64,000 nucleotides of DNA. Origin: Eublepharis macularius (taxonomy: Eukaryota; Chordata; Lepidosauria; Squamata; Eublepharidae). Made by a program: the position numbers and the translations under genes. Shown one piece after another: positions 834 to 63,272 of this stretch; positions within the stretch are counted from its first letter, which is position 1; each line of letters starts with the position of its first letter. The stretch spans positions 29,951,001-30,015,000 of the forward strand of contig NC_072807.1 in the NCBI RefSeq assembly GCF_028583425.1. The letters are read 5' to 3'. The notes beneath the pieces were generated by a model. That model made no database searches, was not told the DNA's origin, and was given only the letters and a program-made list of their open reading frames with translations.

Positions 834-1059
834 CAGGGCTTTTTTTCAGCTGGAACGCAGTGGAACAGAGTTCCAGAACATCTTGAAAATGGTCACATGG
901 CTGGTGGCCCCGCCCCCTGATCTCCAGACAGAGGAGAGAGGGCAATCTAAACTCCCCTCTGTCTGGAGATCAGGGGGTGGGGCCACCAGCCATGTGACCA
1001 TTTTCTCCGAGGGCAACCCACTGAGTTCCACCACCTCTTTTTCCAGAAAAAAAGCCCTG
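834..1059. mobile_element. hAT-like foldback MITE (CAGGGCTTTTTT family), copy 1
   Basis: The element begins CAGGGCTTTTTT and ends AAAAAAAGCCCTG, so its tips are inverted. It is flanked by 8 bp direct repeats, CTGATCAC (826-833) and CTGATCAT (1060-1067), which differ at one base. An 8 bp duplication with CAGGG-type ends is typical of hAT transposons. The interior is palindromic: GAAAATGGTCACATGGCTGG on the left is repeated in reverse complement on the right, so the transcript would fold into a hairpin. No coding capacity is visible. Other copies are at 5132, 13010, 58210 and 59590. Confidence 0.85.
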
Positions 1060-1184
1060 CTGATCATATACTTGACCCAATGGCCTTTCATGTCACCTAG
1101 GCCAAACTTGATATGATTGGGGAGGTCCGCGCACTTCTGTCATTCATTCATGTTTAAAGTGCGAGGGTTTATTGACATATTGAG

Positions 1185-5004: not shown

Positions 5005-5540
5005 CGAGGTGCTCAGTGGTTCAGTGGTTTGAATCCCACTCCTGCCATGAGCTCAGTAGGTGGCCTTGGGTAAGCCACTCCTCTCAGCCCCAGCTCCCCA
5101 GCTGTATTGTGGAAATAATAACAACACTAACCAGGGCTTTTTTTCTAGGAAAAGAGGTGGTAGAACTCAGTGATGGAACTCAGGACTGCACAATGAGGTC
5201 ACTTTGGGTTCGTTGGAACAAGGGGGAGTTTTTAAAAGTTTAAATAGCCCTCGGTGAAAATGGTCACATGGCCAGTGGCCCCAGCCCCCTGATCTCCAGA
5301 CAAAGGGGAGTTTAGATTGCCCTCCGCACCCAGCTGGGCATGGAGGGCAATCTAAACTCCCCTCTGTCTGGAGATTGGGCCAGGGCCACTGGCCATGTGA
5401 CCATTTTCAAGAGGTGCCGGAATTCCGTTCCACCACATTCCAGCTGAAAAAAAGCCCTGACTCTAACTTGTTCACTGCTCTGGGTGAGACATTAATCTGT
5501 CTAGAAGAGTGGTATATAAGCGCAGTTATTACTGTATTCC
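5005..5540 (+). repeat. SINE split by a MITE (5132-5459)
   Basis: The left half (5005-5131) has B-box-like TTTGAATCCCACTCC, then GGCCTTGGGTAAGCCACTC and GTGGAAATAATAACAACAC. The right half (5460-5540) carries on with CTCTGGGTGAGACATTAATC and GTGGTATATAAGCGCAG, the usual tail of this type of SINE. The MITE therefore landed inside an existing SINE. Confidence 0.6.
5132..5459. mobile_element. hAT-like foldback MITE (CAGGGCTTTTTT family), copy 2
   Basis: It begins CAGGGCTTTTTTTC and ends GAAAAAAAGCCCTG. Flanking 8 bp repeats are ACACTAAC (5124-5131) and ACTCTAAC (5460-5467), one mismatch. It has the same palindromic core as the copy at 834 plus extra central sequence around 5178-5250, so it is the longest of the five copies. 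No coding capacity. Confidence 0.82.
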
Positions 5541-12035: not shown

Positions 12036-13009
12036 GAAAATTACTTTTTCCTACTATATCATTAAGCAAAGAGGCCAAGCACCACTGGTTTTTAAATGGA
12101 AGACAGGTTATTTCAGAGCAGTACAGCTTACAGAAGGAGCCTTCATGCATTGCATAATAACGGGGCTCAGGCAATAACCTTTGTTATGAAAATAAGAGTG
12201 TGGCAAACATGTCCCTGTTTTCATCTTTGGCAATGTGGGCAGGTATGTGTTTAATGAGCAGCATGACTCCCTTCACATGCCTTCATTTGTTTGTCTTGAT
12301 CTTGTATCCTAGATGCTCGGCTTGGGCAATGTACTATTAAAAATAATGTAGTAAATTAATACCTACTTTATTAACTCTCTCATCCACGTGTTAATCCAAG
12401 CAGAAAGGTCTTGTGCTGGTTCCAAACTATGTTCCAGGAACGTGTCATTTTCCACGGCAACAGCTATTCCACTCAAACATGTACCACTGAAATGAACAGG
12501 TTATGGGGCAGAAATACTTGGTAGATTGCTGTATCTCTAAGGGGTTAGTCTCTCTATAGCATAGGCACTGGAAAGGAAACGTTTAATCGTGAAAAGAAGA
12601 GAACTTGAATAGAGAGAAAAATAATATTATCTGGATCCGTAGTGGTGTTCAGCTTGGAGCTAGTCCTTCTTCTGTGGTCTTGGTGGGCTTGGGACTTTAT
12701 TCAGGACTTCTTAGCAACTTTCATCTTTCCCAGCATGGATGGCCATATGTTCTGAGGTTTTTGAAGCAGCCTTCATTCACAACATGTAATTACTCCATCA
12801 GTCGTTTCCTATTTATCTTGCTAGGAATGCGCTTGGCATGCCCAGAAAAAAAAAAAAACAGGGAAGGGCAATTCGTTTCCTTTACAACCTGATTTTTAAA
12901 AGTGTCCCATGGTGGCCATTTTTCTGGAAATAACATTGATAGAAGGAACAAAGATGCAGAATTCCTTGCTGTTTTGTGTAGGAACTTTGTGCCTTCCATG
13001 ATTTAAGTG
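12036..13009. other. Intergenic, no gene seen
   Basis: A 95-codon frame at 12605-12892 has no recognisable family. A 12-base A run lies near 12846. Confidence 0.45.
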
Positions 13010-13262
13010 CAGGGCCTTTTTTCTGGGAAAAGAGGTGGTGGAACTCAGTGGGTTGTTCTCGGAGAAAATGGTCACATGGCTGGTGGCCCCGCCCCCTGAA
13101 CTCCAGGCAGAGGGGAGTTTAGATTGCCCTCCATGCCGCGGCGCGGAGGGCAATCTAAACTCCCCTCTGTCTGGAGATCAGGGGGCAGGGCCACCAGCCA
13201 TGTGACCATTTTCAAGAGGTTCCAGAACTCCGTTCCACTGCGTTCCAGCTGAAAAAAAGCCG
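13010..13262. mobile_element. hAT-like foldback MITE (CAGGGCTTTTTT family), copy 3
   Basis: It begins CAGGGCCTTTTTTC. The right tip is worn, reading AAAAAAAGCCG instead of the full inverted tip. Direct repeats TTTAAGTG (13002-13009) and TTTATGTG (13263-13270) differ at one base. The core is two arms of about 100 bp in inverted orientation around CATGCCGCGGCGCGG. Confidence 0.82.
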
Positions 13263-33399: not shown

Positions 33400-34760
33400 A
33401 TTATCCGGGCCTCCCTGATGTAACGAGCAGCCATCCCTCCGCCTCTCCTCCCCCCGCCCCCCGTTCGTTCTGGAAGCGGTTCCCTTGGCGCCCTCGCAGA
33501 AGCTATGGGGTGGGGGGCGCCGGGAAGGGGCGCTCGCTCGGCCCCCTGCCTTAAGGGGTCTTGCGCCGGAGCCTGGGAGAGGGGGCGGCGTGCGCGCCTG
33601 GGAGGCAGGAGGAGCGCCTTCGCCAAGGTCATTCCCAGCCCGCATCCAAGGCGGAGGGGCGGGAAGCAGCCGGCCTCCTGGAACCGGCGCCTCCTTCCCC
33701 CTCCCGGGGAAAGAGGGGCGAGGGCGCAATAAGCCCCCTCCCCCGGGCAGAGCTGCAATGGCGAGGCGGGCGCCTCCAGGAGCGCCCCGGGAACAGGCGA
33801 TTGCTGCACGCACCGGGCAGGGCGCACGCCGCGGAGCGAGGACCCCCCTCTCCAAGGCCGGGCGCGCACGGACGGAAGCGCAGCCATTGCTGGGGGAAGG
33901 GGCTGGGTCGGGGCTGCGGGCAGAACGCGCCCGCCCTCCCTCGCTGCCTCCCCGCGCCCGCGCTTACCCAGCCGCCGTGCGCCTCCAGCCACTCGCGCTT
34001 CTCCCCGGCCAGATAGGCAACCAGCGCCTCGGCCAGGGCGCCGATCTCGTCGCGGGTGCCCCGCTCGGCCAGAGCCGCCGCCAGGTTGCCGGTGAACACG
34101 ACCAGCGCCACCACCCGGCCCCAGTTGAGGCCGCCGTCGGCTTCCATCTGCGCGGCCACCCGGCCCAAGTGCGCGGCCGCCCCGCCGGGCTCCGGTAAGG
34201 CGGCCGGGCTGCAGGCGGAGCGGAAGAAGGACTTCTCGCGGCTCTCCAGCTCGTCGGCCACCCGCCGCAGGGTCTTGGCCGTGCGGCTGGGGGGCAGCGC
34301 CGAGCCGCCCAGGCGGTGCTGCAGATAGTCGTCCACCAACTGCGCCGTCTGGGCGGGCAGCTCGCTCTGCATGGCGGCGGCGGCCGAGGGAGAGCTGGCT
34401 CAGTCCGACCGGGCCCCGTACCGGCGCCTGGCGCAGCCTAAGAAGCCGCCTCCGCCCCCGCACTTGCCCACGTGGCCCGGCCGGCTTCGGCGGCTCCTCC
34501 CCAGGCCCGCGAAGCTGCCGTGCTCCGCTGCCCCCCCTCCTGGGCCGACGGAGGACAGCAAGCGGAGGGGCGCGTCGCCGGCGCGCAACGAAGCCGCAGC
34601 CCTCGGAACGGTGGAGTCCCGCTGGGCTGGCCGCGCGATAAACCCTGGGGGCCCGGTAAAAGCGGCGCAGGAGGCGCCCAGTGGCACCTTCGCAGAATTT
34701 GTCCCTGCGTCCGGCGGCAGCTTAGCGGAAAGAGGCAATCGACCCCCCCCCCGGTTTAAA
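33400..34760. promoter_or_regulatory. BCL2L10: CpG island covering BCL2L10 exon 1 and promoter
   Basis: This stretch is much richer in G, C and CpG than the AT-rich DNA on either side. It spans the 5' part of the intron, exon 1 and about 390 bp upstream of the start. Long open frames on both strands here arise from the GC bias. I saw no TATA box in the first bases upstream of the start codon, so a CpG-island promoter with spread-out starts is likely. Confidence 0.8.
33968..34372 (-). CDS. BCL2L10: BCL2L10 (NR-13-like), coding exon 1
   Basis: Codes for the first 135 of 178 residues of a BCL2-family apoptosis regulator, which acts by binding other BCL2 members at mitochondrial or ER membranes. 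The start ATG at 34372 gives MQSELPAQTAQLVDDYLQ, a BH4-like helix at residues 8-21. A BH3-like stretch LRRVADELESRE lies at about 35-46. BH1 is GGLNWGRVVALVVFTGNL at 80-97. BH2 starts at WLEAHGGW (128-135) and is completed by exon 2. The total of 178 residues agrees with my recollection of about 177 for chicken NR-13. Donor is GTAAGC at 33967. GNB5 as the 5' neighbour on the same strand also supports the assignment. Mammalian BCL2L10 is more diverged. Whether this copy protects or kills cells cannot be read from sequence. Confidence 0.93.
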
Positions 34761-36469: not shown

Positions 36470-36625
36470 GATGTATTTATGTACTTTATTTATAGCCCAC
36501 TTTTCTCCCCTAGGTACCTCATGTTGTTCTCCATTTTATCCTCACAGCAACCCTGTGAGGTGGGTTAGGCTGAATTTATGTGACTAGCCCAGCTTCCATA
36601 ACAGAGTGGGGGAGTTGAACCTGGG
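36470..36625 (-). repeat. tRNA-derived SINE
   Basis: On the minus strand: CCCAGGTTCAACTCCCCCAC (B box), TCTGTTATGGAAGCTGGGCT, TCAGCCTAACCCACCTCACA, GGTTGCTGTGAGGATAAAAT and GTACCTAGGGGAGAAAAGTG. It is the window's main SINE family, head-to-head with the next copy. Confidence 0.7.
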
Positions 36626-36644
36626 TTGTGATCCTATGCTCAGA

Positions 36645-36870
36645 GAGACAGTATAGTGTAGTGGATAGAGTGTCAGAGTAGGCTCTGTGAGACTAGGGTT
36701 CAAATCCCCACTCTGCTGTGGAAGCATTCTTGGTGACCCTGGACCAATCATACACACTCAGCCTAAGCTACAGGGTTGTTGTGAGGATAAAATGAAGGAG
36801 AAGGATGTAAGCTGCTTTGGGTCCCCGTTGGGGAGAAAGGCAGGGCATAAAGTAAATAAATACTCTAGAA
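36645..36870 (+). repeat. tRNA-derived SINE, well preserved
   Basis: GACAGTATAGTGTAGTGGAT (A box), AGGGTTCAAATCCCCACTCT (B box), CTTGGTGACCCTGGACCAAT, GTTGTTGTGAGGATAAAATG, then GGGTCCCCGTTGGGGAGAAA and a TAAATAAATA tail. This is the best copy from which to read the family consensus in this window. Confidence 0.78.
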
Positions 36871-36984
36871 GCACTCCCCTGCGTAGGCGAGTAGGCCAGA
36901 TCTGCACAACCATAAAAACTGAGCTGTCAGTGGACATTTGATCAGCATTCATGCCTATGAAAGGCCAATGTTTGCCTATGAAAG

Positions 36985-37055
36985 GATGCTTTATTTATTT
37001 ACTTCATGTTTAGCCCGCCTTTCTCCCCAGTGGGGACTTAGACCATTCTCTCCTG
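36985..37055 (-). repeat. SINE 3' tail fragment
   Basis: On the minus strand TAAGTCCCCACTGGGGAGAA then AGGCGGGCTAAACATGAAG matches the 3' end of the SINE at 36645. Confidence 0.55.
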
Positions 37056-37758
37056 TTGCTATAAACCTGGTTTCTTCATGGAGAATTATAACATTCTTAT
37101 CACACATACCTAAGAAAAGCTGGAAATTATTCACAAGGAAGCATTTTTGTTACAGATAAATTTCCCCCACCTCTGGATGTGCTTCTACGTAGGAAAAAAT
37201 GCTCTTTAGTACTGTTGTGGTTGCAGAGAGCATATGGTTACACAGGTGTCACCAGCACCTAGTGGCTATTGCCAGTGAAGTCATATTCTAAGCTTTCTTT
37301 CCTATTGCAAAAGCAGCAGGCAGCTCGCATTTTTGTCATGAAAATAGAACGAGAAAGAAGGAAGGAGAAATGAGAATCAGCATCAACAGACAGAAAAGAA
37401 GGGAACGTAAATAAAAGAAGAAAGGAATAGGAAGGCTGGAAAAAATTAGAAAAGGACAGAGAAGAAATATCTTTTAAAGGATGGGCGTTCTCCAATTATT
37501 AAGAGGATGAGATTATCTCCTTTCCCTAACGCATTTGAGTACTGACACTCCCTTTCTCCACAAAAAGTACAACTGGGGGGAAATTATTTCTAGAAACACT
37601 GATTTGCCTTCTGTGACAAAAGATTTCTTGCCCCTGTAAACTCTCAGGCAGTTTCTCTTTTCTGTTTATTGCTATGGTATATAACCAGGAGCTAATGGAG
37701 GCTCTTCACAAAATGGCTGCTCCAAAATTGCCTCTTTGCACCCATTATAAGGAAGGAA
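37056..37758. other. Intergenic, no gene seen
   Basis: Purine-rich text around 37340-37480 gives a serine- and phenylalanine-rich minus-strand frame, which looks compositional. There is no repeat with clear limits. Confidence 0.45.
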
Positions 37759-37812
37759 AAACAGGGTTTCTCACCTGTAACTGTTGATCGTCGAGTCTCT
37801 TCTGTGCAGACA

Positions 37813-37970
37813 CACATTGGGACTGCGCAGGCGCAGGCCAGCCGCGGAAAAGATTTTTCTAGCTCTAAGAGATGTGAGGGGGACGTTCGGATCCACCGCG
37901 CATGCGCGCCGGTGTTCCCGCCAATTTTGAATGCATATATATCCGAACGTCCCCGGCATTCCCTCAGTTC
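37813..37970. repeat. DIRS element, left inverted terminal repeat
   Basis: 158 bp from CACATTGGGACTGCGCAGGC to CCGGCATTCCCTCAGTTC. Its reverse complement is at 43379-43536, and the two look the same throughout. An outer arm at 37759-37818 (CAGGGTTTCTCACCTGTAAC onward) is mirrored within the internal complementary region. Confidence 0.9.
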
Positions 37971-38032
37971 ACCTGAGCCGCCGGAGAAACAATGGAAGAA
38001 ACCAAGCACTCACAGCGGGGCAGGCGGGAGGG

Positions 38033-38130
38033 AATGTGTGTCTGCACAGAAGAGACTCGACGATCAACAGTTACAGGTGAGAAACCCTGTTTATCGTCTT
38101 CGTCCTTCTGTGCAGCCCCACATTGGGAGA
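38033..38130. repeat. DIRS element, internal complementary region
   Basis: The first part (38033-38090) is the reverse complement of the outer left end (37759-37818). The second part (38093-38130, ATCGTCTTCGTCCTTCTGTG onward) is the reverse complement of the outer right end (43526-43562). The two outer ends are thus copied side by side, as expected from the circular-intermediate model known for DIRS elements. Confidence 0.85.
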
Positions 38131-38168
38131 GTAACTAGCATCTCACCAATGGGGGCGGGTGTGAGTGT

Positions 38169-39713
38169 CTACTTGAACAAGGACTGCAGGACAGCTGTGC
38201 CCACAGCCGAGTCACGTCGTGCATGCACATCCACAGAATAGTGCTTGATGAAAGTGTCTGCAGTGGACCATGTCGCAGCTTGGCAGACGTCCCGGAGCGG
38301 CACTCCTCGTAGGAAGGCAGCAGAAGCAGCTTGCGCTCGAGTGGAATGAGCGGTAACCAACAAGGGACACTGGACTCCAGCATGCTGATAGCAAAGTTTA
38401 ATCGTAGACACAATCCAGCGAGAGATGGACTGGGCAGAAGCAGGTGAGCCCTTGCGAGGGCCAGAGTAACACACAAACAGGGCAGGAGACTTCCTGAAAC
38501 ATTTGGTGCGGTGCAAATAAAACAATAAAGCACGCTTTACATCCAACGTGTGTAGTGCTCGTTCCCCTGGGGATGAAGGTGTTGGAAAAAAGGAAGGGAG
38601 GAACACCTTTTGCTGTAGGTGAAACCTTGAGACTACCTTGGGCAGAAACTCCATGCTAGTGTGGAGCATGACAGTACCAGGGAAAAACTGCAGGAAGGGA
38701 GGGTCACACCGCAGGGCAGACAGCTCCCCAACACGCCTAGAGGACGTGATTGCCACCAGGAAAGCCACCTTCTGAGTGAGCAAAGGCAGGGGACAAGAAG
38801 ATAGAGGCTCAAAGGGCTGGAGCATTAGCTGGGAGAGAACCAGGGAGAGACTCCATTGTGGAATGGGATGGGCCCTAGGAGGGAAGGTCTTGAACAGGCC
38901 CTTCAGGAACTGCTTGGAAAGCCAGTGAGTAAAAACTGTCTTCCCATCAATCTGCTCATGGAAGGCAGAGATTGCAGCCATGTGGACCTTAATACTGGAA
39001 AACGCAAGGCCCTGGGAGCAGAGATCCAGGAGGTAGTCCAGGATGACAGGGAGCGGGCAACTAAAGGGAGAAACCCCCTTTTGGGCCAACCACCGGGAAA
39101 AACGTGACCACTTCCTCTGGTAGGACAACCTGGTGGACGGTTTCCGGGCATTCAAGATCACCCCAAGCACCCCAGAAGAGAGGTTCATTCCCGGTTGCCC
39201 AGAAGCCAGGCAGCCAGATTCAGTACAGCCACATCGTGATGCCACACCCCGTCCCTGGTTAAGAGGTCCGGGGCGTGAGGCAGGGGGAGGCATCGCCCCT
39301 GGGACAGGGAGAGCAAAAGGGGGAACCAATCCTGGCGAGGCCACCGAGGGGCAACGAGGATACAGCGGGTTCGGTAGGCCCTGACCCTGGAAAGAACCTT
39401 GTACAGGAGCGGGAAGGGCGGGAAGGCATAAAAGAGCCCTGGGGACCAAGGTATTTGGAAGGCATCCCCTAGGGAGTGGCGGCCAATGCCGGCCCGGGAG
39501 CAGAACAGCGGGGCCTGTTTGTTGCGGGCAGTGGCGAAGAGGTCGACCAACGGCGTGCCCCATGTGCGGAAAACCTGGTCGAGGTAAACCCTGTTTAGGG
39601 ACCACTCGTGCTGAGGCAGAAACACCCTGCTCAGCGCATCCGCCGAGGTGTTGAGATCCCCGGCAATGTGCACGGCTCTGGGAAGGACGTTGTTGACCAT
39701 GGCCCAATTCCAT
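38169..39713 (-). CDS. DIRS tyrosine recombinase frame
   Basis: 514 codons, open throughout. The recombinase part starts near LNARKPSTRLSYQRKWSRF, a core-binding type segment. The catalytic set is visible as Arg in SSRRVGELSAL, His-x-x-Arg in AHSTRAQAAS, and Tyr in IKHYSVDV near the C-terminus. This enzyme joins the DNA circle to the target and replaces the integrase of LTR elements. The frame overlaps the RT/RNase H frame by about 0.5 kb in another phase, as is common in the family. The true start may lie downstream of the first Met. Confidence 0.88.
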   Translation of the reverse strand: MELGHGQQRPSQSRAHCRGSQHLGGCAEQGVSASARVVPKQGLPRPGFPHMGHAVGRPLRHCPQQTGPAVLLPGRHWPPLPRGCLPNTLVPRALLCLPALPAPVQGSFQGQGLPNPLYPRCPSVASPGLVPPFALPVPGAMPPPASRPGPLNQGRGVASRCGCTESGCLASGQPGMNLSSGVLGVILNARKPSTRLSYQRKWSRFSRWLAQKGVSPFSCPLPVILDYLLDLCSQGLAFSSIKVHMAAISAFHEQIDGKTVFTHWLSKQFLKGLFKTFPPRAHPIPQWSLSLVLSQLMLQPFEPLSSCPLPLLTQKVAFLVAITSSRRVGELSALRCDPPFLQFFPGTVMLHTSMEFLPKVVSRFHLQQKVFLPSFFPTPSSPGERALHTLDVKRALLFYLHRTKCFRKSPALFVCYSGPRKGSPASAQSISRWIVSTIKLCYQHAGVQCPLLVTAHSTRAQAASAAFLRGVPLRDVCQAATWSTADTFIKHYSVDVHARRDSAVGTAVLQSLFK

Positions 39714-41083
39714 AGAGTCGTTGCCTCCTTGCAGAGCTTGAGCGAGACCGTCCCTCCCTGCTTGTTGAGGTAGTAGCAGGCCGTGGTATTGTCCGACAGG
39801 ACCTGAACCCTCCTGTTCCGAATGGCATCTGCAAAAGAAGCGAGGGAGTAACGGATCGCCCTAAGCTCAAGAAGGTTGATATGCATGGATGCCTCAGATG
39901 GGGACCAGATGCCCTGAGCCGAAAGCTGTCCACAGCGCCCCCCCCATCCCAAGTTGGAGGCATCGGTATAAACCGTGACCTCGGCTAGGAAGGGGCCGAA
40001 AGGACAACCTTCAGACAGGTTCCCAGGGACAGTCCACCAGGCCAGAGAGCGCAGCACCACCCTGGGGATGGAAAACCTCCGGTGCTGACCCATGGTGAGG
40101 GGGTTGTACCTCCGGACAAACCAGTTTTGCAGAGGCCTCATACGCAGGCGCGCAAAGAAAACCACCCCTGTGGTGGAGGCCATAAGGCCCAACAGAGTCT
40201 GAACCAAAAGGGCAGTCTGATACCGGCAATGCATAAAATGCCGGGCCAAAGCGGAAAGCCTGGCCAACCGGTCAGGGGGCAGGTAGGCTCTACCCAGCAG
40301 GGAATTGAAATGGACCCCAATAAACCTAATGGCCATGCCTGGGGTCAGGATAGACTTATCCCCATTAACCACCAAGCCCAGCCTAGCCAGCACGGACAAA
40401 GTGAGGGCAATATGGGCCTGGAGAGAGTCAGGCGAGGGTCCCACCAGGAGCCAGTCATCCAAGTACGGGTAGATAAAGCAACCCTGGGACCGCAGGTATG
40501 CCACTACGGTGGCCATGCACTTTGTGAAGACTCTGGGTGCAGAGGCTAGCCCGAAGGGCAACACTGTATATTCATACACAGAATCCCCATACACAAACCG
40601 CAGGTATTTCCTGTGGCCCTCAAATATAGAAATGTGGAAGTAGGCATCCTTCAGGTCTAGAATGGCCAGCCAGACGCCCACTTCCAGGAGTTCCATGACT
40701 CGCGCCAGGGTCAGCATGCGAAACTTCTCAGCCTTCAAATAACCATTGAGGCCTCGAAGGTCTAAGATGGGCCGGGAACCTCCACCTTTTTTATCCACGA
40801 GGAAGTATCTGGAGTAAAATCCCCATGGGGAAGTAGAGACATTGACCACCCGGACAGCACCTTTGGTAACCAACTCCATAACATTATTGTGTAACACAAC
40901 ATCACAACATGGAGAACAACGGGGAGGGAGAGAGAGAGGGGGTGCATCCGTAAACATTAACTTGTAACCATGGGCCACAATGGACAGGACCCAAGCGTCA
41001 GAAGTAACACGTTGCCAACAGGGCAAAAAAGGTCGAAGCCTGTCCAGAAACTGGGCAGCAGAGGAAGCACCCTCGGAGGCCAA
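39185..41083 (-). CDS. DIRS reverse transcriptase and RNase H frame
   Basis: 632 codons, open throughout. RT motifs include SRPILDLRGLN at about 103-113, LDLKDAYFHI at about 142-151, LPFGLASAPRVF at about 175-186, and the active-site YLDD at 207-210. RNase H follows, with VYTDASNLGWGG, NLLELRAI and LSDNTTA. A DIRS-like segment LVAPRWPRQDWFPLLLSLS comes near the end. I do not see a clear methyltransferase domain, which many DIRS-1 relatives carry. Confidence 0.9.
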   Translation of the reverse strand: MASEGASSAAQFLDRLRPFLPCWQRVTSDAWVLSIVAHGYKLMFTDAPPLSLPPRCSPCCDVVLHNNVMELVTKGAVRVVNVSTSPWGFYSRYFLVDKKGGGSRPILDLRGLNGYLKAEKFRMLTLARVMELLEVGVWLAILDLKDAYFHISIFEGHRKYLRFVYGDSVYEYTVLPFGLASAPRVFTKCMATVVAYLRSQGCFIYPYLDDWLLVGPSPDSLQAHIALTLSVLARLGLVVNGDKSILTPGMAIRFIGVHFNSLLGRAYLPPDRLARLSALARHFMHCRYQTALLVQTLLGLMASTTGVVFFARLRMRPLQNWFVRRYNPLTMGQHRRFSIPRVVLRSLAWWTVPGNLSEGCPFGPFLAEVTVYTDASNLGWGGRCGQLSAQGIWSPSEASMHINLLELRAIRYSLASFADAIRNRRVQVLSDNTTACYYLNKQGGTVSLKLCKEATTLWNWAMVNNVLPRAVHIAGDLNTSADALSRVFLPQHEWSLNRVYLDQVFRTWGTPLVDLFATARNKQAPLFCSRAGIGRHSLGDAFQIPWSPGLFYAFPPFPLLYKVLSRVRAYRTRCILVAPRWPRQDWFPLLLSLSQGRCLPLPHAPDLLTRDGVWHHDVAVLNLAAWLLGNRE

Positions 41084-41104
41084 CGGGGGAGCGTTCAGGC
41101 GCAG

Positions 41105-43249
41105 TCAGAAGACCGAGGGCTTCTGCGCCGAGGTCGAAGGCTTGGGCGAAGAGGGCTGTTGCCTGCCCTTGGACCGGCCGGAGCGCCTGGAAGGGTGACG
41201 CTGCTGGGCAGAGTAGGATCGGTGACCGTAGGACTGGCCCGAGAAGAAGCGCCCTTGACGCTGCTGGTAAGGCTGGTAAGGGGTCTGGTAGGATCGGAAC
41301 CGACCATAGCGATACCTCGGACCCGACGACTGGGCTGAGGGGGCGACCCCGAGGGACTTGGCCGTCTGCTGATTCTTCTTCATCAGGGAGAGGGACTCAT
41401 CCGTCTTCTCCGAGAAGAGCTGGGGCCCCTCGAACGGGAAGTCCTCCACCTTCGCCTTCTTCTCTGGAGGCAGGGCCGTGGACCGGAGCCAGGCGTGGCG
41501 ACGCAGGACCACCGAAGTTGCCATCGCTCGCGCTGCAGAGTCGGCGGCGTCCTTGCCAGCTGTCATTTGCTGTTTTGACAGCTTCACTGCCTCGGCTTGG
41601 AGGGCCTTAACCAGGTGGCGGCGATCCTCCGGGAGGTCGGAGAGGTAAGAAGACAGCCTCTTCCACAGGAATAGATTATAGGATCCCATTATGGCCTGGA
41701 AGTTGGCAATACGGAATCCCAGAGACGCGGATGAGTAGAGTTTCCTGCCCACGCCATCCAGCTTCCTGCCTTCCCGGTCCGCCGGGGCCGACGAGGAACC
41801 GGAACGGAACCGAGCCTGACCCTCCTCAGCCACGATCGACGAGGGTTTCGGGTGATTGAAGAGGTACGGGCAATCATCTTGCTTTAAACGGTAGTACCGT
41901 TCCACCTTCTTTGCCGTCGCGGACAGGGACGCCGGCGCCTGCCAGAGCGCGAGAGCGTTATCAACAAAATCCTCCACAGGGGGAAACGCCACCGACGCGG
42001 GGGACCCGGAATACAGCGCCTCCAGCAGCTTACTCTTGGGCTTGGAGGTCGTGGAGGAGACGTCTATCTCCAGCGCGGCGGCCATCCGCACCATCTGTTC
42101 GGAGAATAGCCTGTAATCGTCATTTGGGGACGATGAGCGGGGCCCACCCACGGTGTCATCCGGGGAAGGATCCGAGGCCGCGTCTGAAGAGCACTCCGAC
42201 GGTGACGCCAGACCTTCCTCATCCTCGGAATCTGAAAACTCCGGCGAGGTTTGCGTCGGAACCGAAGACCGGTGAGCGGTCGGGGCCGACGGATAAGTTG
42301 CAGGAACCGGCGGTCGCAGAGGTAAGCCCGGAGGTGGAGGAGCGGGTGCTGGGAGCCCGACTGGCTGAGCCGGAACGGAGACCATCGGAACCGACGGATG
42401 TTGCAGGAAGGGCAGCGACTGCTGGAACCATGCCACAAAATCCTGCCAGGAGGTCATGTTCCCAACCCCCGCGACCGGCTGGCAAGGGGGCAGAGGAGCA
42501 GGCACCGGGGCAGGCCAGCGAAGAGGCATCGGAACCGACGAGGTAGACGGCAGTGGAACGGAGGCCTCTGAAGGCGCCGGGGCGGACGGCAGGGAGCGCT
42601 CAAAAGATTGGAACGGATCCGGGAAAGGCGGAAACGGCACAAATTCCTCGGGAACCGACGGAGGAGGCGTGCAAGGAGGCGACGGGGTGTGGAGACTCAC
42701 CACATCGTCGGGTATCAGGACTGGTTCGGCCGGAGAACCAGGCAGCACAGTCGGAGCTGGGGACAATGCACGGTCCTTGGCCCTCGACTTCGCCTTGGCC
42801 TTCTTGGACGGGGGCTCCGAAACAGCCTCCGGAACCGAAGGCTTGGAGGAGGACTTCGGCTTGGGCGCGGAACGCTTCTTGGCCTTCCGGCTCGAAGGAC
42901 GATCCCCGGAACCGGAATCAGGACGGGCCTCCGGAACGGGTTGCCCCGTCGGTTCCGAGGGGAGCGGCTCTGGCGACTTACGAGACGGCGCCGGTGACGG
43001 AGCGGCGGAGCGCGGCCTATCTCCCGAAGAGCCTGACGGCTTGGGGGGGAGAAGGTTGGCATCCCACAAGAAGGCACGGAGCCTGGCCTTCCGATCACTC
43101 CTTGCCTTCGGAGTGAAGGACATACAAATGGAGCAGCGCTCGACAACATGCCCCTCGCCCAGGCAGATGAGGCAGAGCTCATGGCCGTCCGAATGGGTCA
43201 TCTTAGTGCCGCATTTATGACACTTTTTAAACAAAGATGTCTGCGACAT
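41105..43249 (-). CDS. DIRS Gag-like frame
   Basis: The likely start is ATG at 43249 (MSQTSLFKKCHKCG). The open frame extends upstream into the terminal repeat, which I take as leader. The N-terminus has a Cys/His cluster, C-x2-C and later C-x2-C with His. A long proline- and serine-rich low-complexity middle follows, then a helical C-terminal part with FQAIMGSYNLFLWKRLSSYL and a basic, tyrosine-rich end. DIRS Gag proteins are poorly conserved, so the assignment rests mainly on position. Confidence 0.75.
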   Translation of the reverse strand: MSQTSLFKKCHKCGTKMTHSDGHELCLICLGEGHVVERCSICMSFTPKARSDRKARLRAFLWDANLLPPKPSGSSGDRPRSAAPSPAPSRKSPEPLPSEPTGQPVPEARPDSGSGDRPSSRKAKKRSAPKPKSSSKPSVPEAVSEPPSKKAKAKSRAKDRALSPAPTVLPGSPAEPVLIPDDVVSLHTPSPPCTPPPSVPEEFVPFPPFPDPFQSFERSLPSAPAPSEASVPLPSTSSVPMPLRWPAPVPAPLPPCQPVAGVGNMTSWQDFVAWFQQSLPFLQHPSVPMVSVPAQPVGLPAPAPPPPGLPLRPPVPATYPSAPTAHRSSVPTQTSPEFSDSEDEEGLASPSECSSDAASDPSPDDTVGGPRSSSPNDDYRLFSEQMVRMAAALEIDVSSTTSKPKSKLLEALYSGSPASVAFPPVEDFVDNALALWQAPASLSATAKKVERYYRLKQDDCPYLFNHPKPSSIVAEEGQARFRSGSSSAPADREGRKLDGVGRKLYSSASLGFRIANFQAIMGSYNLFLWKRLSSYLSDLPEDRRHLVKALQAEAVKLSKQQMTAGKDAADSAARAMATSVVLRRHAWLRSTALPPEKKAKVEDFPFEGPQLFSEKTDESLSLMKKNQQTAKSLGVAPSAQSSGPRYRYGRFRSYQTPYQPYQQRQGRFFSGQSYGHRSYSAQQRHPSRRSGRSKGRQQPSSPKPSTSAQKPSVF

Positions 43250-43378
43250 AATGAACGGTATCTCCCGACAGATGACAAGGGGAAAATACCGACCAGCAGA
43301 AGAAACGATCCAAAACTCCGAAGAGACGCTTGAAACGAACGCTAGACAATAAGAACCTTTTCGACGGCGGCGAAAAAG

Positions 43379-43536
43379 GAACTGAGGGAATGCCGGGGAC
43401 GTTCGGATATATATGCATTCAAAATTGGCGGGAACACCGGCGCGCATGCGCGGTGGATCCGAACGTCCCCCTCACATCTCTTAGAGCTAGAAAAATCTTT
43501 TCCGCGGCTGGCCTGCGCCTGCGCAGTCCCAATGTG
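43379..43536. repeat. DIRS element, right inverted terminal repeat
   Basis: 158 bp, the reverse complement of 37813-37970 with no difference seen. The outer segment to 43562 (GGGGCTGCACAGAAGGACGA onward) differs from the left outer arm. It is mirrored at 38093-38130 instead. Confidence 0.9.
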
Positions 43537-43562
43537 GGGCTGCACAGAAGGACGAAGACGAT

Positions 43563-44149
43563 CTAATTTGATATCGACAACATTGCCTGCAAGAAGGTCC
43601 AGGATACAAGCTTAATAATAATATAAATATCTCTGACTTAGGTTTTGGTTTGCGTGAAGGTCTTTTGCCCTTCTTGGCCTACCTTGTTCAGTCTGTCAGG
43701 TGGCCTGTGGTCTACTGGGCCCGGCTGAGGCCTACTCTCCACCTGGGAGTCCTCCTGAGGAGACAGAAATCCAGTCAGGGGACAGGAATCTTTCAAGGGC
43801 TGGCTCTCCAAAATTGATACCAATAGGGACAATGCCTCAAAAATTGTAGTTTGGCACACCTGAGGCCTGTCCTGTGTGGCAGCAGCTGTTATGACAAAAA
43901 GAAGGCTTGAAAGGGGAAGGCCAAAGAACTGGAGGAGAGTTGGAGACATGGCGGCCTCCTGGAAAACAGAAAGGGCTACATTCTCCTGCAGGGCCGAGTA
44001 GGACATAGTCGCTTAAGTGAACGGCAGCTGCTGGAGACAAACTTTTGACATGCTCAGTTGAGGGAAATGGGACACAATCATGTCATTTTATGTTTTATTT
44101 TGTACTACCAGGTAATACCTACATATACTGGCTTGCATCCTACCACTGG
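43563..44149. other. Intergenic, no gene seen
   Basis: A 122-codon minus-strand frame at 43638-44006 contains wording such as FLSPQEDSQVESRPQPGPVDHR but no domain I know. It may be chance or an old repeat. Confidence 0.4.
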
Positions 44150-44335
44150 GTTGCGTTGCCAACCTCCAAGTGGGGCCTGGGGGTCTCTTGCAATTACAGC
44201 AGATCTCCAGACTACAATGATAAATTGTCCTTGAGGAAATGGAAGGTAGACTTTAGGGCAATTATACCCTGCCCCTACAAACCCCCCTCTCCAAATCTCC
44301 AGGAATTTCCCAACTCAGAGTTAGCAACTCTTCCT
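44150..44335. repeat. Interspersed repeat, GTTGCCAGCCTCCAGG family
   Basis: GCGTTGCCAACCTCCAAGTG, TCTCTTGCAATTACAGCAGA and CCAAATCTCCAGGAATTTCC match the copy at 4311 in the same orientation, ending near CCCAACTCAGAGTTAGCAAC. Confidence 0.6.
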
Positions 44336-47300
44336 CTTGACTCAGCAAAGTTTGAAGCTTTCCAGAATAAGGAAACTTGTTCCATTAGAAGGGGCTCTTT
44401 CTGCACTGGAAGAGCCACTTCTGTTGGAGAATAGTCCATAGGGTGAAGGAAGGCTTTAAGCTTTGCTGAGCATAGTGATAGGACATAAGCCACTGTTTTA
44501 ACTAGAATTAAACGTGTGAACACGTTCCTTTGACTCGTCAAATATCAGTGTTACGATATATACATAATGCAGAAAGTTACAAAGACAGAAGATTAATTTT
44601 CTAATTCTGTTTTTTGCATGTTTTTTAAAAATCCCATATGCTCAACTGCACAACAACTTATTCCATCATGCACAAAAATGTTCAGCACTTGACAAAATTT
44701 GTCTACCTGCATGTTAGAATAAATCGAGTTAATCATAACCTCACACCCATGCTATTTTGGAAACTTTTACTCTAATATTTTCTGCATGGCTGTGTGATCT
44801 ATTGTGGCCTAGCACTACTTTAAATAATAACACAAAAAGCACAAGATGAAATCCTGTTTCAGTAGCCTTTATTTTAAAAACCTTTACATATTCCCTACTG
44901 GCTGTGCCATTCCCCGCTTTGGAACATCTATCTCAGGGCAGTCATTTATGCAAACTCAAAGCACACACTGGTCTAGTCTGGTGAAGTTGTATTGGAGCTA
45001 GTATAGTCCTTAGAATAAACTTCGGGACTTTTGTTACCTGGAAAACCCCTAAAACACTTTGCAGTTTCTCGTAACATCTCTAGTGTTTTGTTTTCCTTGG
45101 ATTCGTGCCTTCCAACCACCCGTATACGGCTTCTTAAGATTATCTTTTAACATAGCACAACAATGTTGTGGCAGTATGGATCAAAAGTCCATGCTGTTCA
45201 CTTTTGATGTTGCTACCTTTGCTCAGTGCAACAGAAAGGTTTTTGAAAAGGGGGGACAATTGAGTATTTCTAACATGGTCAGTATCCTAATTTGTGCTAC
45301 AGCTTCATTAGTTGCTTAGAGTCGTGTATATGAAATTTGATGTGGGGTGTATTTAGCCCAGGTCTTTGCCAGAACTTATACAAAAAACTTTTTAAACTAG
45401 ACATACCAGGAACTGAAACAGGGACTTTGTGCATGGAAAGCATGTGCTCATTCATTGAGCTATAGCTCCTCCTAAATGACATAACCGCTTTTGGTTATGT
45501 ACTGGGCTTCAGTTCTGTATTGGAGTTTCCAGGTCATTCATGAGGGCATTTTGAAAAAGGAATTTAATTTCCCTAAGACACTGCTTAAGTTCAAAATCAG
45601 CAGAAGGTCACTAGAAACTGGAAGACACATAGCCGTGATGGGAAATGAACCCATCAATCTTTCATTTGTACTACCCTTGAAGAATGATTGTCCTTTGCAG
45701 CCAGCGAGGCCTCTGTCATCACCATCATCCATATTCATCATGTGATGAGCCAATTCATTTAAATTCTAAAATGTAATTAAAAAATAACAGCCATTTTTTC
45801 TACTGTGGCATTCAGTGCTGCCTTTAGATTTAAACACCAGGCTCCCACTCCAAATAGCCCTTACCTAGCTGCTTACCCTTTGGAAAAGTATGTCATTTTA
45901 CTCTTCAGTAAAAGAACATCTCTATACATAGGCTTGGATTTGGATTGGTTTCTATGGGTGCAAGAATTTGTGCTCCTAAAATGTAATTCCGCCCACCCCA
46001 TCCTATCAGTGGAAGCCCGAAATGCACTCTCAAATCCTGTTCTTGGAAGACAGGGGAACCCCCCAAGAACAGGATTTCTGGGATATTTGGGGCTGCCATG
46101 GGAAGGCAAAATGGGAAAACTGCCCTCCGAGAGTGGAAATCCTTGCACTTATGGAAATGTTAACCTGGTTCCAACCCACAGCCTCCAAATAATTGTTTGT
46201 GTTAGGATACAAAAGCATTTTTATGCAACTTGGTTGCATAAAACCTAAAAGGGAAAAATAGACTGTAATCATTAATTTACTGTACAATTCTAAAGTCACA
46301 CTGTTCTTAGTCCACTGCTATCAACGGGCTCCGAAGTATGTAACCCTGTTTAGGGTTATACTGCTAGTTTATTTAATCAGTAGACTTACCATTCCATGGA
46401 AACTGTAAAGCAATGGAGTGGAAATCCCCTCTGACAGACTGCCTTCTCCCTTAAGGCTCTTTCAGATGAGAATGTCTAAGGTTGATTGAAAATGCCTTTT
46501 TAATTAGATTATCATTGTAACAGGATGTTTATTATGTTTATCTTTTACCGTCTTTCTGTGGAACCCATAAAGGCATACATAAGGTTTCTGGGAGATCTTC
46601 CATCCATGTAGTGACCAGATCAAATCTGTTTTGCTAAAGCAAGATGGCAGTATCAGAGCATGCCCTAAGATAATCCACTCCATTCTTCCCCAGGAGATCA
46701 TGATTCCACAGCAAATCCATGTGGTAGGTCTGCCTGAGATGCAGCAATTTTTCCAAGGCTACCCAATAAACTGCATGGCAGAGCTGAGCTCTCTCTTTGA
46801 GAATGCACATGTCAAGTGAATATAAAGGAGATGTTTTGATTGCCTGACCCAAGCTGTTCTCAGAACCAGTCCCTGGGTACAGATACAGTGAAGACAATAC
46901 AAAATGAGGGAGAGAATGTTGTCTTGTCCCAAGGAAGAGAACAGAACACACATCGAGTGAAGGCAATCTCCGGTGGGCTTTAAGAATGTAATCCACCTGC
47001 TGACCCCTTGCCCTGAATTCATGAATCCATGCAGCAAACTAGCCACAACACACACCAAATTTCTTTGAAGATACTTAGCTTGTTCAGAAAACAGAAATTT
47101 TTAATTATGCTTTCATACAAGCAGAGTGAGGAAGAAGAGCTGTGAGAACCCAGCAAAAAAAAAATTGCTTGAATGTCTTGTATCATTTCCCCTCTCCTTT
47201 TTGAATTTAAATTTCAGCTCTAGTAAGTGTTCTACAACCCTGCTGAGTGACTAGTTGCAGTGAACAGCATGGACAGCAGTTTAAACCCACTCCCCCACCA

Positions 47301-56218: not shown

Positions 56219-57621
<1,403 letters not shown>

Positions 57622-58209
57622 CTAGAAGGAAAAAAGTAAAAAGCAAAATCTCAGCTTAAGCACAAGATGGACAAAGTAAGACAAACAAATTATTTCTTTT
57701 TAACATTATGTTAATCCAGTATAAACCAGTTTGGGTTCCTTCAAGGAGAAAAGCTGAGTACCAATATTTAAATAAATAAATTGCAGAGTACAAATCCCCC
57801 ACCAACATGGAAATAATAATTCCCCTAGGAAAACCAATCTCCACAGTGTTGTCGTCATAATCTTTGATCATAGTCTCTTCCTCATAAACTTCCATAATGA
57901 TTTCATTCTCTTCCAATACATAAATTTCCTCTGCCTTGGGCCTGATTAACAATTAGAACCTTTCCCTCCCACGCACGTCTAAAAAAGCTGCAATTATATG
58001 AAAATGATTTCTTTAGCACACTCATATGTTACTCTTTCTCCAAAGAGCTTAGAATGGTATAGATGGAGGTAATTTCCCTTTTATTCTCAGAACAGTCTTA
58101 AGGTTGGGCTGAGAGGGTTGCAACCAGCCCTCAATCCTGCAGTGAACTTCTAGGCTGAATAGGAGTGTGAAAACCATTGTACTCTCTCTAGCTTTGGGTT
58201 GCCCAATAC

Positions 58210-58448
58210 CAGGGCTTTTTTTCTAGGAAAAGAGGTGGTGGAACTTAGTGGGTTGCCCTCGGCGAAAATGGTCACATGGCTGGTGGCCCCGCCCCCTGAT
58301 CTCCAGACAGAGGGGAGTTTAGATTTGCAGAGGGCAATCTCAACTCCCCTCTGTCTGGAGATCAGGGGGCGGGGCCACCAGCCATGTGACCATTTTAAAG
58401 AGGTTCCGGAACTCCGTTCCACCGCGTTCCAGTTGAAAAAAATCCCTG
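58210..58448. mobile_element. hAT-like foldback MITE (CAGGGCTTTTTT family), copy 4
   Basis: Tips CAGGGCTTTTTTTC and GAAAAAAATCCCTG, with a perfect 8 bp duplication CCCAATAC at 58202-58209 and 58449-58456. Arms of about 95 bp (ATGGTCACATGGCTGGTGGC onward) are inverted around a short TTTGCAGAGGG centre. It lies in a GNB5 intron. Confidence 0.9.
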
Positions 58449-58564: not shown

Positions 58565-58785
58565 TCAGAGGCATGCCACAGGAAGCTGCCTTATTCTGAA
58601 TGAGACCATTGGTCCACCACGGTCAATACTGTCTACTCAGTGACTCTCCACGGTTTTAGACAGAGGGCTTCCATATCACCTACTTCCTGGTCTTTTTAAC
58701 TGGGCATGCCAAGGATTGAACCTGGGACTTTTTCTGCGTGCCAAGCAGATGCTCTATCACTGAACCACACATCCCTCCCTCCAGT
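58565..58785 (-). repeat. tRNA-derived SINE, second family
   Basis: On minus: GTGGTTCAGTGATAGAGCAT and CTGCTTGGCACGC (A-box region), CCCAGGTTCAATCCTTGGCA (B box), and a 3' end AGAATAAGGCAGCTTCCTG. It is distinct in its body from the SINE at 36645. Copies of this family are at 1-132 and 63297-63460. Confidence 0.7.

Positions 58786-59345: not shown

Positions 59346-63272
<3,927 letters not shown>

Follow-up and report, generated by a model that had tools for sequence, protein, structure and literature searches.

The 64,000-bp window analyzed here, positions 29,951,001 to 30,015,000 of Eublepharis macularius contig NC_072807.1 (C18:29951001-30015000 in our genome search; positions below are those of the window), contains a retroelement on its minus strand that is almost certainly a complete, very young member of the DIRS1-like family, with a layout close to that of AcDIRS2 of Anolis. 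The element combines three reading frames lacking an integrase with inverted terminal repeats (ITRs), an internal complementary region (ICR), a terminal extension matched by the ICR, and the absence of target-site duplication (Table 1). A first-pass annotation of the same DNA had called a whole-looking DIRS-type element with inverted ends at precisely these coordinates, and both Pfam and repeat searches agree with that call. Added here are the very young family to which the element belongs, a target motif resolved to the base with empty sites, and junctions that depart from 3-bp identity.

Termini and internal complementary region

The ends of the element were set by the ICR match together with 38 other copies, which have identical ends and differing flanks. 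An inverted block of 185 nt, 96% alike, occupies the termini. The inverted repeats had been described as looking identical, which holds for the inner cores (158/158 positions) but not for the 26 bp outside them, and a further 28 bp is present at the right end. The ICR, absent from the first-pass annotation, consists of a stretch complementary to the left end at 36/36 positions (38093-38128) adjoining one complementary to the right end at 60/60 (38033-38092), thereby recording a circle junction of TTT|ATC; it alone matches the 28-bp extension. The outer ends of DIRS1-like elements track their ICR arms (PMC3266345), and the same correspondence of each outer end with its own arm explains why the two are unlike here. 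The ICR is exact in 20/20 aligned copies, which were picked for exact ends. Neither split direct repeats, as in Ngaro and PAT elements, nor direct long terminal repeats (LTRs) were found, given that no direct repeat family of at least 20 nt exists within 36500-45000, and no further copies of the element were found in the 64-kb window.

Table 1 Features of the element and its surroundings (window positions)
Feature	Position	Strand	Details
Element, almost certainly a complete DIRS1-like element	37759..43562	minus	5,804 bp; ATCGTC (43562) to CCTGTTT (37759)
Left terminus	43379..43562	minus	Outer divergent part 43537-43562 (26 bp); conserved ITR core 43379-43536 (158 bp)
Right terminus	37759..37970	minus	Core 37813-37970 (158 bp); divergent part 37787-37812 (26 bp); extension 37759-37786 (28 bp)
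ICR	38033..38128	minus	Adjoining complements of both ends
Gag-like open reading frame (ORF) 1	41105..43249	minus	714 amino acids; ATG at 43249 (purine at -3); ends TGA-CTG
Pol ORF2	39185..41104	minus	639 codons; reverse transcriptase (RT), RNase H, presumed methyltransferase-like C-terminal region; first ATG 40957
Tyrosine recombinase core	38169..39188	minus	339 amino acids; presumed catalytic R ~38738, HSTR ~38348, Y ~38240
Recombinase frame open through end of Pol	39189..39860	minus	224 codons; long ORF overlap
Left target flank TAG	43563..43565	minus	G is -1 of the G^TTCY site
Right target flank TTCC	37755..37758	minus	+1 to +4 of the G^TTCY site
BCL2L10	33629-34399	minus	Flanks the element on one side
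GNB5 last-exon motif (presumed)	56327-56416	minus	Flanks the element on the other side

Coding frames and domains

The three long minus-strand frames reported earlier (Gag-like, RT/RNase H with YLDD, and recombinase) lie where they had been placed and exceed chance. Stop-free runs of the element reach 788, 639 and 563 codons; in 200 first-order Markov randomizations the longest stop-free run on either strand averaged 221 codons with a maximum of 373, so that runs of the observed length are not due to chance. Pol matched Pfam RVT_1 (E 3.1e-19), carries YLDD at about 40465, and matched RNase H at an E-value of 0.00042, short of that family's own cut-off. Its tail (VDLFAT...FPPF) resembles, by eye, what we take to be the DIRS methyltransferase. 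In the third frame a SAM-like domain starts 15 residues after the recombinase ATG, and the R, HxxR and Y of the first-pass annotation correspond to an R, HSTR and Y picked out by eye, which we presume to be catalytic. Gag matched LAP2alpha below cut-off in Pfam (E 0.0045) and in a phmmer search of PDB (E 0.0037); this weak match agrees with the origin claimed for the mammalian LAP2alpha domain, namely a DIRS1-like Gag (PMC4495291). A search of viral and genome contig collections with Pol as the sole query protein, an approach limited to close relatives, returned no relative.

Several of these domain results weigh against the DIRS1-like assignment: the Pfam matches to the SAM-like integrase domain (E 0.0017) and Phage_integrase (E 0.074) in the third frame both fall under their cut-offs, the methyltransferase region has no Pfam or NCBIfam match, and an AlphaFold model of the recombinase made without relatives was poor (mean predicted local distance difference test score 43). 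The solved structures nearest to the RT are those of Ty3 polymerases, as would be expected if a Ngaro-like, PAT-like or LTR (Ty3/Gypsy) element had been misread as DIRS, although a Gypsy-like RT is published for DIRS as well (PMC3266345). Such a misreading has next to no likelihood, given that Pfam matches up to E 0.1 include no integrase or protease, that the repeats are inverted with no direct family, that the ICR is exactly complementary to both ends, and that target-site duplication is absent from all junctions studied (see below).

Genomic copies and recent activity

A copy count in the source genome and a comparison of terminal repeats across copies, both proposed in the first-pass annotation, were carried out on the 72-contig, 2,236,738,225-base assembly. 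Exact 39-bp left ends numbered 242 genome-wide, and right ends followed by TTCY numbered 258. With 185 bp of the right terminus as query we obtained 1,758 first-look candidates, 40 of which were scored; all 40 match at 185/185 positions and show an additional 33-nt match at their own ICR. Twenty scored loci (L009-L028) were taken with 1-kb flanks and the remaining 20 as junctions only. Our alignment comprises the window copy and the 19 of L009-L028 that are exact at both ends, the internally deleted L023 being excluded; picked for a perfect right terminus, these copies lean young, a bias that weakens the case for a very young family. This L023 is a copy of ~870 bp made up of 27 bp of left end, 64 bp of Gag region and ~790 bp of right end, possibly a non-autonomous derivative.

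Maximum pairwise divergence among the 20 aligned copies is 1.46% (median 0.83%, 190 pairs), and the copies fall into subfamilies whose main split has a support of 1.000. The window copy differs from the nearest of the other 19, L013, at 4 of 5,804 sites, corresponding to roughly 0.2-0.7 million years if a rate of 0.5-2e-9 per site per year is assumed. L019 and L020, which lie ~22 kb apart in opposite orientation and in different flanks, show zero differences (at most ~0.5 million years, 95% bound, at the same rate). In 19/20 copies the two ITR cores match perfectly; those of L015 have a single mismatch in 158. Recent activity had initially been deduced from the lack of visible breaks and the apparent identity of the terminal repeats. 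The activity itself is supported, better by the genome copies than by the terminal repeats, which are a weak clock because 0 differences in 254 paired bp bound the divergence only below ~1.2% and because unlike outer ends are built into DIRS elements.

All three frames are open in 12/20 aligned copies (rows read by hand), or in 9/20 by a script count with the recombinase ATG required. Taken singly, the frames are open in 16 copies for Gag, 17 for Pol and 19 for the recombinase (11 if its ATG is required), the broken frames being Gag in L014, L015, L019 and L020, Pol in L011, L018 and L021, and the recombinase in L009. Because the identical pair L019/L020 has a common Gag frameshift, transposition of a copy with a defective Gag may have been assisted by other copies. 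L018 and L021, from two subfamilies, show the same Pol frameshift pattern from codon 36 onward, perhaps through slippage at a T run or sequencing error.

Synonymous changes account for 49/72 in gag (expected 0.30, p 3e-11), 28/41 in the recombinase (p 9e-7) and 21/41 in Pol outside the overlap, an excess indicating that the source copies were under selection; the expectation weights transitions 4:1 and leaves CpG changes unmodelled, which detracts from that conclusion. Among singletons the excess persists in gag (28/45) and the recombinase (16/22) and is absent in Pol (6/19), the pattern that recent neutral changes should give.

An old, dead insertion kept alike by gene conversion or assembly collapse might also account for the similarity of the copies, and the Pol frameshift pattern common to L018 and L021, though perhaps a homopolymer error or slippage, would suit it. 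So would the related element at L029 and L030, where inverted duplication of the end and flank at 99% identity suggests that conversion-like events may occur. We nevertheless regard this explanation as very improbable, since the copies lie in different flanks, form subfamilies with a main split of support 1.000, retain open frames in the majority of cases and differ predominantly by synonymous changes. The element at L029 and L030 (G000 C2:140265700-140272900) is ~93% alike where compared and has the right terminus at both ends, with 470 bp of right terminus and flank repeated inverted on the opposite side; its origin could lie in ITR-mediated inverted duplication, in conversion or in a fold-back of the assembly. 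Separately, right ends at G000 C1:56913125 and C1:56923610, 10.5 kb apart, have identical 17-base flanks, suggesting segmental duplication after insertion.

Insertion sites and strand asymmetry

We compiled 39 junction pairs from the window copy, 19 of L009-L028 and 19 of the 20 junction-only loci (L036 was omitted, its left end lying just outside the stretch taken). The target reads G at -1 in 34, T at +1 in 36, T at +2 in 39, C at +3 in 27 and a pyrimidine at +4 in 39; the full G^TTCY occurs in 22/39 insertions, vs 0.22% of flank positions. Target-site duplications of 3, 4, 5 or 6 nt were found in 0/39 pairs. Among the 100 right-end matches listed, four looked like ICRs of a relative (see below); of 94 distinct sites, 89 begin with TT and 55 with TTC, the search pattern having excluded A-initial targets. 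Empty sites were identified for two insertions. For L018, an inverted host copy in its own left flank is continuous across the junction (85/88), as are two further host copies in the window (86-87%); for L025, the host repeat at window 58577-58762 is continuous (72%). Insertion is thus base-exact at a G^TTCY-like site and leaves no duplication. A limited literature search of titles and abstract openings found no published account of a DIRS target motif or of gecko DIRS.

In the published DIRS model, element RNA would be reverse transcribed, the ICR would bridge and complete both ends to give a circle closed at TTT|ATC, and this circle junction would be joined to a genomic site by the tyrosine recombinase. 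Circular DNA of DIRS has been verified, while the replication model is experimentally not fully proven (PMC5633606). An identical 3-bp junction in circle and target requires left flanks to end in TTT, which they do in 0/39 cases; the published identity is therefore absent, a point that also speaks against the DIRS1-like classification. The two sides are markedly asymmetric. Exact left ends begin with the element's base A in 242 cases vs the target's base T in 6 (C and G were not searched), and of the 39 right flanks 36 open with T and 3 with A.

This asymmetry may reflect integration of one strand. Integron cassettes integrate by single-strand exchange, whereas staggered two-strand exchange is usual for tyrosine recombinases. 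That the present family integrates by single-strand rather than staggered two-strand exchange is conceivable, although we think it unlikely. Joining would take place at one phosphodiester, linking T^A of the element with G^T of the target, so that no overlap would need to match and none would be duplicated or mixed. The A/T difference at +1 (circle ATC vs target TTC) would then serve as a marker, with left ends keeping A and right flanks T. Single-strand exchange followed by replication would give the asymmetry; biased repair could do so as well.

The published two-strand model comes close to an even prospect in our assessment. Here a 3-bp WTC overlap would allow the circle's ATC to pair with the target's TTC, and repair would favor the circle on the left and the target on the right. 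The TC of the element's ATC is indeed matched by the target at +2 (T, 39/39) and +3 (C, 27/39). Moreover, the 100 right-end matches listed include three ICR-like TTT|TTCG sequences of a relative and one TTT|TTTG, so that TTC is a possible junction of the ancestor. For DIRS-like families of Xenopus, both ends are reported to carry TTT (PMC9210276), which is also evidence against single-strand exchange as a general DIRS feature. Heteroduplex repair should, on the other hand, mix outcomes, which is at odds with the strong bias at both the left ends and the right flanks.

Expression of Pol and the recombinase

Pol continues in the Gag frame right after the Gag TGA, with its first ATG ~150 nt further on, and the stop context is TGA-CTG in 14 and TGA-CTA in 6 of the 20 aligned copies. 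UGA-CUA is a known readthrough context. Because the frame is the same, no ATG is nearby and TGA-CTR occurs in 20/20 copies, Pol would be made by readthrough of the Gag TGA; the copies are too alike for this conservation to count as independent. The RNA at the Gag stop and after it shows no unusual structure (z +1.2 and +0.3).

For the recombinase, translation by termination-reinitiation is suggested by the ATGA overlap, in which the ATG at 39188 overlaps the Pol TGA (39187-39185) with a purine at -3 and the SAM-like domain following closely. We consider this doubtful, as GTG replaces the ATG in 8/20 aligned copies, all of one subfamily that includes the identical pair L019/L020, and as the frame upstream of the ATG stays open beyond chance. 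In the overlap, 0/39 possible stop positions are used vs 18/60 in non-overlapping Pol (probability 6e-4, using the overlap's own third-base T frequency), and 0/2,000 synonymous shuffles gave an extension of the recombinase frame as long as 224 codons. This upstream stretch is open in 20/20 aligned copies, which is weak information given their near-identity. Tempering the objection from the open frame, its codon usage (log-odds per codon -0.085, vs 0.053 for the Pol frame) and amino acids (5/23 variable sites synonymous) show no sign of constraint. A strict dependence of recombinase translation on the ATGA overlap is weakened by the GTG copies, and the protein may instead be produced from the longer frame that overlaps Pol.

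Surroundings of the element

The element lies between BCL2L10 and a motif that we take to be the last exon of GNB5 (Table 1), a neighborhood that marks the DNA as vertebrate and supports a reptile host only indirectly. In vertebrates SLC24A5 and BCL2L10 occupy one chromosome arm. The place of the window, near 30 Mb on C18, fits the leopard gecko SLC24A5 mapping interval, located at 26.7 to 32.8 Mb of scaffold 18 (PMC12774848). Five copies of a dispersed repeat of ~250 bp, ~71-91% alike and matching on both strands, occur at window positions 834-1061, 5247-5460, 13009-13261, 58207-58448 and 59590-59850. A tRNA-like match (tRNA-Ala GGC, 58701-58774) overlaps a dispersed repeat at 58577-58774 of the kind hit by L025, which is probably a tRNA-derived short interspersed element.

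Comparison with known DIRS elements

The presence of DIRS in a lizard is unsurprising, since Anolis holds 775 well-conserved copies in 42 families (PMC3266345). The hundreds of near-identical vertebrate copies described here constitute a large natural set of junctions for the study of target choice and strand inheritance, and so young a family predicts insertion polymorphism in living animals. The usual 3-bp identity of start, end and target, which our element lacks, was not treated as defining, because the table in PMC3266345 lists exceptions, among them AcDIRS1 and AcDIRS2, in which start and end are not the same.

The closest counterpart is AcDIRS2 of Anolis carolinensis (PMC3266345, Table 3), a likeness that rests on published dimensions rather than on compared sequences. 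The two share the junction AAA, a divergent ITR part of 26 bp, a right extension of 28 bp, a long ORF overlap and the lack of a left extension, and the AcDIRS2 ICRs of 39-60 compare with 36 plus the 3-bp junction, and 60, here. They differ in length (5,997 bp vs 5,804, or 5,807 with the 3 bp before ATCGTC), in conserved ITR (136 vs 158) and in that AcDIRS2 is listed as starting with TTT, a triplet never found at our left flanks. AcDIRS1 of Anolis (PMC3266345) has a similar layout and a divergent ITR part of 26, but a junction of AAG, an extension of 26, ICRs of 40-58 and no long ORF overlap. The Dictyostelium element DIRS-1 (PMC5633606) resembles the present one in its Gag, its RT and RNase H, its overlapping tyrosine recombinase, inverted repeats, ICR and circle model, and its methyltransferase has a putative counterpart in the Pol tail here. 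It differs in its host, and the present insertions lie at dispersed sites with a G^TTCY-like motif. The LAP2alpha domain of mammalian TMPO and ZNF451 (PMC4495291), weakly matched by our Gag, is a host gene domain and not an element. With terminal lengths nearly equal to those of AcDIRS2, the element is of a kind already known.

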